A stretch of 46,348 bases of DNA from assembly GCA_001828605.1 (NCBI GenBank), contig MHZB01000092.1, forward strand, positions 1-46,348, read 5' to 3'. This DNA is from Planctomycetes bacterium RIFCSPLOWO2_12_FULL_50_35. GTDB lineage: Bacteria > Planctomycetota > Brocadiia > Brocadiales > Bathyanammoxibiaceae. Position numbers and translations under genes: made by a program. Positions 27,835 to 44,556 of this stretch are shown in pieces. A model generated the notes under the pieces. The model saw only the letters and a list, made by a program, of their open reading frames with translations, was not told the origin of the DNA and searched no databases. Positions within the stretch are counted from its first letter, which is position 1, and each line of letters opens with the position of its first letter.

Positions 27835-28048
27835 GGGTTTCCAAACCCGGTCTCACACCTAAATCCAGCACTAATTAGGCCCGGATTTTTCCATACACAT
27901 AGGTAAAGTCTATATATAGTGTCACTAGAGGGTAAACCTGCTACATATGGAATAACTTATTAGTTTTTTGGTTGACAACCCTGTACGGTTGCAAATATAA
28001 TCGCGCCTTGGGCAAGAGATGCCCTAGAACATCATCCCTGTCAGAATA

Positions 28049-43951: not shown

Positions 43952-44347
43952 TTAAGCGACTTTCCTTACTGAATAATCTCCTCTGTGTCTGTCCCTTAGT
44001 TCGCCAATCTTGGACTTATTCCAGTTGGATGTCCGGCTGTAATAACCCACTATCCTGGTAATGCCGTAGAGCTTCTCCCTTACGCCCGTCTCAAGGGACC
44101 CTATTACGACATCAAGCTCTTGCTTCAGGATAGCTTCCGGATTGATTGTATAGGACGTCTTCATACGATGGTTGTCAATCTTAAGGGCGTCCTTTTCAAA
44201 CTTTTTACCGGCAAACTCCTGGCCGGCATAAATCACCCCGTCAATCTCCAGATAATCGTGGGCATTAACGGCGTCACAAAAGGCCTGGAGTCTCTCCTCC
44301 AACACAGGGGTCTCACACACTTCTCTTTCGAGTAATGCTGGGGTCAT
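43952..44347 (-). CDS. Small protein with NrdD (class III RNR) C-terminal glycyl-radical-like tail
   Basis: C-terminus YGITRIVGYYSRTSNWNKSKIGELRDRHRG resembles the NrdD R-V-x-G-Y-Y-x-P-V-S-x-W-N-x-G-K...DR tail. AGGAG upstream; promoter and NrdR-like boxes further upstream. Confidence 0.7.
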   Translation of the reverse strand: MTPALLEREVCETPVLEERLQAFCDAVNAHDYLEIDGVIYAGQEFAGKKFEKDALKIDNHRMKTSYTINPEAILKQELDVVIGSLETGVREKLYGITRIVGYYSRTSNWNKSKIGELRDRHRGDYSVRKVA

Positions 44348-44473
44348 GTTGCCGCCTTATCTCCTTTCTGTATCAAAAATATTGTTAAGAAACAAAGATC
44401 GCACTTAACGATAGGGTTAACGTTTTCTTATACCTGCCACCCCCACTACTACTACTAATAGTACATGGGCGGT

Positions 44474-44501
44474 ATTATAGTGCCGTATGTTGAAATGTCA
44501 A
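44474..44501 (-). promoter_or_regulatory. Sigma70-type promoter TTGACA-N16-TATAAT
   Basis: Minus strand TTGACA (44501-44496), 16-nt spacer, TATAAT (44479-44474), upstream of the 43952-44347 ORF. Confidence 0.8.
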
Positions 44502-44509
44502 GCCGAAAA

Positions 44510-44556
44510 ACACAATATTTTGTATGGTTTTCTATTATCTACACAATATGTTGCCA
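44510..44556 (-). promoter_or_regulatory. Tandem NrdR-box-like sites
   Basis: ACACAATATTTTGTAT (44510-44525) and ACACAATATGTTGCCA (44541-44556), starts 31 bp apart. They match consensus acaCwAtATaTwGtgt at 14/16 and 12/16 by eye. Confidence 0.7.

Follow-up and report, generated by a model that had tools for sequence, protein, structure and literature searches.

A predicted NrdR operator precedes a small gene for a candidate trans glycyl-radical subunit of class III ribonucleotide reductase in Brocadiales

Introduction

GrcA (YfiD) of E. coli and Y06I of phage T4 are autonomous glycyl radical cofactors of pyruvate formate-lyase (PFL). No spare parts other than these two PFL proteins have been validated, and others are speculated to exist (PMC8683613). 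In class III ribonucleotide reductase (RNR), NrdD (TIGR02487; PF13597), the glycyl-radical tail is normally part of the same polypeptide, where it follows the Zn ribbon. In P. copri NrdD the radical resides on Gly711 (PMC11226230) and in T. maritima on Gly621 (PMC4493059), and a search for noncanonical residues found only class III RNRs that encode glycine (PMC11528403). RNRs on two polypeptides are represented by the split class II NrdJa/NrdJb of Pseudomonas aeruginosa (PMC4520616), and introns or inteins have been described within phage nrdD genes (PMC3653736).

Here, we describe a small gene that is similar to each of these systems in some respects and distinct in others. Like GrcA/YfiD and Y06I, its product is a stand-alone copy of a glycyl-radical domain of ~14 kDa, and both kinds of protein are encoded by bacteria and phages; activation in trans by the radical-SAM activase of the partner enzyme, as in those systems, is predicted for the small protein. 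In Brocadiaceae, it is found alongside an intact partner enzyme, as is GrcA/YfiD. However, the tail of the small protein is homologous to NrdD and not to PFL, its N-terminal domain is unrelated, the gene is under predicted NrdR control and the partner NrdD is often without a glycine of its own. The small protein did not match GrcA and PFL glycyl-radical models, and gave consistent matches to NrdD models only. We propose that it may work like GrcA/YfiD without belonging to the GrcA/YfiD family.

The radical loop and C-terminal helix of the small protein correspond to the glycyl-radical tail of class III NrdD, but are encoded by a separate gene, which is found at another locus in Planctomycetota or directly downstream of nrdD in Elusimicrobiota. 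NrdJa/NrdJb likewise divides an RNR between two polypeptides, but belongs to another class with another radical, and the split lies in the C-terminal domains of the AdoCbl enzyme and does not involve the radical-bearing residue. The insertion of introns or inteins into phage nrdD is a different phenomenon from a stand-alone tail gene. The predicted operator resembles the NrdR operators of E. coli, Streptomyces, Listeria and Streptococcus, which are paired palindromic 16-bp boxes with a 15-bp gap (PMC9110341, PMC12051234, PMC12176259), whereas the target here is a putative stand-alone radical subunit and not an RNR gene named in the literature searched. In the open-access PMC literature, no report was found of a split or truncated NrdD, or of a stand-alone class III glycyl-radical protein.

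The predicted NrdR operator

The whole stretch of DNA that was analysed (the window; 46,348 nucleotides) is contig 92 of a 1.99-Mb genome that is 89.6% complete. The relatives of this genome include Candidatus Brocadia, Jettenia and Loosdrechtia as well as further Planctomycetota. Five families (f1–f5) were compared within what we take to be the anammox order Brocadiales; f1 is the family of the window, f5 is Brocadiaceae and f3 is presumably Scalindua-type.

The original prediction was of tandem NrdR-like boxes at positions 44510–44556, and both 16-mers are indeed located there, with starts 31 bp apart and a 15-bp gap. Its identification of the motif was borne out, as both sequences fit the NrdR-box consensus of Rodionov and Gelfand, acaCwAtATaTwGtg (as quoted in PMC4009431), and the gap lies within the 15–16 bp spacers of characterised NrdR boxes (PMC12051234). 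Read on the minus strand, the layout is TGGCAACATATTGTGT, 15 bp, ATACAAAATATTGTGT, 8 bp, TTGACA, 16 bp and TATAAT, and the promoter reads, as had been predicted, into a 131-aa NrdD-tail ORF. The leader after the -10 hexamer is ~120 nt in length and contains AGGAG, with the ATG at 44347. Features of the locus are listed in Table 1.

Table 1. Features of the predicted operator, promoter and small gene
Feature	Position	Strand	Remarks
NrdR box 1, promoter-distal	44541..44556	-	TGGCAACATATTGTGT in gene direction, ACACAATATGTTGCCA on the forward strand; kept in 49 orthologous promoters
NrdR box 2, promoter-proximal	44510..44525	-	ATACAAAATATTGTGT in gene direction, ACACAATATTTTGTAT on the forward strand; order-wide consensus aTACAAaATaTTGTaT
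-35 hexamer TTGACA	44496..44501	-	Perfect match; 8 bp downstream of box 2
-10 hexamer TATAAT	44474..44479	-	Perfect match; 16-bp spacer to -35
Shine-Dalgarno-like AGGAG	44361..44365	-	13 nt before ATG; from sequence
Stand-alone NrdD-tail ORF, 131 aa	43952..44347	-	N-terminal domain (~residues 12-90) and glycyl-radical tail
Glycyl-radical tail ITRIVGYYSRTSNWNKSKIGELRDRHRGDY, ~residues 95-125	43973..44065	-	Pfam NRDD columns 533-560; invariant in alignments
Radical Gly G101 codon	44047-44045	-	Same loop in Brocadiaceae NrdD aligned with solved NrdDs

The tandem-box pattern has a sole match without mismatches in the 1.99-Mb genome, which is the 44510–44556 site, and allowing up to three mismatches genome-wide added one further match, the same site on the opposite strand. 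The tandem site is thus unique, and not one of many equally good matches scattered at random. Single half-sites with two or three mismatches are common across the genome, so that the weight of the evidence rests on pairing, position and conservation. The pair at 44510 and 44541 was the top-scoring pair of the window (40/46). The runner-up (score 36.5) is an NrdR-like pair at 27907–27953, AGTCTATATATAGTGT and CTGCTACATATGGAAT with a spacing of 31, which is flanked by genes for a TauE-like permease and an LptD-like outer-membrane protein; it could be a promoter-like chance match.

Conservation of the boxes was assessed in 49 promoters (those of the window, L022–L050 and L181–L200), against a background of 313 tiles of 420 bp. 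A box pair with a spacing of exactly 31 was present in 48/49 orthologous promoters, compared to 0.3% of background tiles. The orthologues are not without boxes, as all 49 promoters scored at least 30, and 98% scored at least 33 (background tiles, 0.3%); the mean pair score over the 49 promoters reached its maximum at a spacing of exactly 31 bp. A chance origin of the boxes was rejected on the basis of the unique tandem site together with this conservation. Nearly all Brocadiales orthologues with sufficient upstream sequence have the pair. A near-consensus promoter follows box 2 at 5–8 bp in f1, f4 and most of f5, and at 18 bp in f3, where the shift relative to the others (7 to 18 bp) amounts to about one helical turn. 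In most f5 promoters (L029–L050), an additional, third box-like motif (for example, GATATACAACATA or GATGTACAATATG) is positioned downstream of the -10 hexamer.

In other Planctomycetota, box pairs were likewise detected a short distance upstream of the starts of eight stand-alone genes (L080, L105, L106, L112, L127, L260, L266 and L267), where 0/200 shuffles scored as high. The scored upstream regions of paralogue L075 and of the G388 gene (L273) contained no pair, that of L069 is cut off by the contig end, and none was found at the Elusimicrobiota stand-alone genes, which directly follow nrdD.

The genome encodes NrdR itself (C102:421-888, TIGR00244, 7e-60), in a cluster with a full-length nrdD (798 aa) and, adjoining nrdD, the gene for NrdG2 (TIGR02495). 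It also encodes a B12-dependent class II RNR (nrdJ). Consistent with the expectation that other RNR-related genes would carry the same boxes, one pair overlaps the nrdR promoter (score 33) and another lies upstream of the class II RNR gene (score 36, spacing 32), with 0/200 shuffles scoring as high at either site. Boxes directly upstream of the host nrdD were sought and none were found; nrdD lies downstream of nrdR. The unique tandem site, the presence of nrdR, the 31-bp peak, the conservation across 49 promoters, the constant distance to a near-consensus promoter and the boxes at the genome's own nrdR and nrdJ support the two boxes as a predicted NrdR operator, to which NrdR would bind.

The stand-alone NrdD-tail protein

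The small protein matches Pfam NRDD (PF13597) in columns 533–560 of 562 only, with 21.8 bits, which is below the cut-off of 26.2. Covering the last 28 columns of the profile only, it is without the catalytic barrel, finger loop and allosteric sites of NrdD, but does have the glycyl-radical loop RxxGY and the C-terminal segment. Alignments of the stand-alone proteins revealed an invariant loop, GITRIVGYYSR..NWNKSK (R98-x-x-G101-Y102 ... N108-W-N-K-S-K113), in which R-[IV]-[VI]-G-Y is kept throughout and which is the most conserved part of the protein. In Brocadiaceae NrdD, the corresponding loop lines up with the radical-Gly segments of solved NrdDs, RITGYL in 8p23 and RIVGYL in T. maritima 4coi.

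In a structure model, residues 11–90 form an alpha-beta-beta-beta-alpha-alpha domain (pLDDT 69–88), and the tail has no confident structure alone, as expected of a part that folds into a partner. No PDB structure matched the model at E < 0.001 in a fold search, leaving the N-terminal domain without a fold match, and no usable match to the protein was obtained from NCBIfam (none over cut-off), PHROGs or PDB sequences.

Relatives of the small gene were found in 57/59 related genomes; in one (G046), the NrdD tail alone matches. This distribution and the invariant radical loop uphold the proposal that the gene is not a random fragment, and its suggested link to dNTP metabolism is supported by the box pair at the promoter, nrdR and the orthologues. 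A frameshift artefact was rejected, as the proteins have their own N-terminal sequence of 65–100 residues and many genomes are concordant; it is also contradicted by the degenerate NrdD tails, which stay in frame. Some Brocadiaceae carry a second paralogue of 142–155 aa, ~48% identical (L075; G016, G025, G027 and G057).

Partner NrdD and phage copies

In four of the five Brocadiales families, the tail of the full-length NrdD is decayed, and in nearly all members the radical glycine has been replaced or lost, a feature that was not part of the original prediction. Among eight f1 genomes, two (the host and G005) have G at the radical position, four have S, and N and D occur once each; the residue is C in f2, and the motif is gone in f3 and f4. 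The host NrdD keeps the glycine (RLDGY) in a degenerate loop. Identity of the NrdD body and tail, respectively, is 87 and 49% in f1, 88 and 62% in f3, and 92 and 95% in f5, and the stand-alone tails are 89–93% identical in the same three families. Within families the NrdD body is 84–92% identical, the Zn-site cysteines are kept and nrdG is adjoining.

Tail state changes at least three times on the NrdD tree, one of them separately in Elusimicrobiota. Outside Brocadiales, NrdD stops at profile column 531–538 of 562 in genomes with the stand-alone gene; the exception is the G067/L123 bin, which has a full-length, different NrdD and may be mixed. In the three Elusimicrobiota genomes that were surveyed, the stand-alone gene is positioned directly after a tail-less nrdD that ends right after the Zn site. 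The G388 genome, also outside Brocadiales, combines a canonical NrdD tail with a 124-aa stand-alone protein (L273, without boxes). In G098, nrdD is immediately followed by a 64-aa tail ORF (L231), and in G257 the tail is in an overlapping frame (L230); both belong to other NrdD lineages and were excluded, and these arrangements represent either a split of another kind or a frameshift.

In a sample of genomes chosen independently of whether they have the small gene, the stand-alone gene was present in 28/30 genomes with a tail-lost NrdD and in 1/15 with a canonical tail outside f5. The Fisher test of this association (1e-8) counts related genomes as independent, and a family-level test gave p = 0.09. 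In f5, nearly all genomes combine the stand-alone gene with an NrdD whose tail is canonical. Two Brocadiales genomes, G004 (96% complete) and G009 (77%), have a Gly-less NrdD, with no stand-alone gene detected even by profile search.

Relatives of the small protein are encoded by 69 IMG/VR viral contigs (L284–L352), mostly as stand-alone proteins, whilst a tblastn search of INPHARED annotated phage records gave no match. The neighbours in L301, L286, L305 and L321 are portal, capsid, virion or terminase genes, and the L301 protein closely resembles an f3 host protein. Whole-record searches of 40 viral records revealed a tail-less NrdD body in one (G446), where it lies in a 1630-aa frame and is accompanied by a separate tail gene. 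G437 has a very weak partial match besides the tail, G428 gave no match at threshold though its locus has a tail, and the remaining records have the tail only; viral records may be fragments, so that this absence of nrdD is provisional.

Discussion

We put the probability at roughly 80% that the small gene, controlled by the predicted NrdR operator, encodes a trans glycyl-radical subunit of class III RNR. This reading, drawn from comparative sequence analysis, is favoured by the invariant loop, the loss of the NrdD glycine, the relaxed f1 tail, the co-occurrence of gene and tail loss, the Elusimicrobiota pairing of nrdD and stand-alone gene, phage G446 and the position of NrdG2 beside the host nrdD. 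The G004 and G009 exceptions, the N-terminal domain without a PDB fold match and the family-level p = 0.09 count against it.

In the mechanism that we propose, an NrdR tetramer would occupy both boxes when dATP is high and repress the promoter ahead of the 131-aa gene; nrdR and the class II RNR gene would be repressed along with it, and probably the nrdR-nrdD-nrdG cluster too. The N-terminal domain of the small protein would dock on NrdD, and its C-terminal loop would insert into the barrel, immediately past the Zn ribbon that NrdD has kept. NrdG (NrdG2) would then install the radical on Gly101, which would start nucleotide reduction at the NrdD active site. As f5 NrdD keeps its own radical tail, the small protein would serve Brocadiaceae as a spare part after cleavage by O2, like GrcA/YfiD for PFL. 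Elsewhere (f1–f4, other Planctomycetota and some Elusimicrobiota) it is probably obligatory, given that the NrdD radical loop is lost or degraded. The host NrdD likely depends on the small protein, and the glycine retained by the host and G005 counts against regarding dependence in the host genome as proven. As a class II RNR is present, class III may not be essential.

The alternative that deserves most attention, though we regard it as unlikely, is that the small protein is everywhere a spare part that repairs O2-cleaved NrdD, which would normally use its own glycine, including the RLDGY glycine of the host. The f5 genomes with both a canonical tail and the stand-alone gene fit this idea, as do the host and G005 glycines. 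However, there is no radical glycine that could be repaired in f2, f3, f4 and six of the eight f1 tails, constraint on the f1 tail is relaxed and Elusimicrobiota NrdD stops right after the Zn site. The same tails make it highly improbable that NrdDs without the glycine work as aminoacyl-radical enzymes by way of the substituted residue, such as Ser, with another role for the small protein: the residue varies freely (G/S/N/D/C), f3 has lost one residue and the whole motif, Elusimicrobiota NrdD has no tail, and the class III RNRs found in PMC11528403 all encode Gly. Ala, Ser and Thr radical enzymes are, nevertheless, known in the PFL-like branch (PMC11528403), and Ser occupies the radical position in several f1 tails.

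It is also conceivable that NrdD is decaying in f1–f4 whilst class II NrdJ supplies dNTPs, leaving the small gene as a relic or regulator, and the presence of a class II RNR that is itself box-controlled is consistent with this. We consider such decay very improbable, given the conserved NrdD bodies with their Zn-site cysteines and adjoining nrdG, the concentration of conservation in the radical loop of the small protein, and the carriage of the gene by phages. Little credence, likewise, can be given to the idea that another regulator uses the boxes as a generic AT-rich palindrome, or that they arose by chance. The frequency of half-sites with two or three mismatches and the weaker pair at 27907 are in line with that idea, but the 31-bp periodicity, order-wide conservation, boxes at nrdR and nrdJ, and pairs at stand-alone genes of other Planctomycetota families argue against it.

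Returning to the trans-subunit reading, we lean towards an extended version in which most Brocadiales, other Planctomycetota and some Elusimicrobiota have an obligate split class III RNR, with NrdD dependent on a radical subunit that is encoded separately under NrdR regulation, and phages that carry this subunit but no nrdD re-arm the host NrdD. The gene family is without a name in current annotation (none in NCBIfam or PHROG, and below cut-off in Pfam). The YfiD literature has raised the question of spare parts for non-PFL glycyl radical enzymes (PMC8683613), and the small protein is a candidate for such a part in an essential DNA-precursor enzyme. The Gly-less NrdDs represent an exception to the report that class III RNRs all encode Gly (PMC11528403). 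Phages are suggested to supply the host RNR with a replaceable, oxygen-sensitive part, and the locus shows how a repair part could turn into an obligatory subunit.
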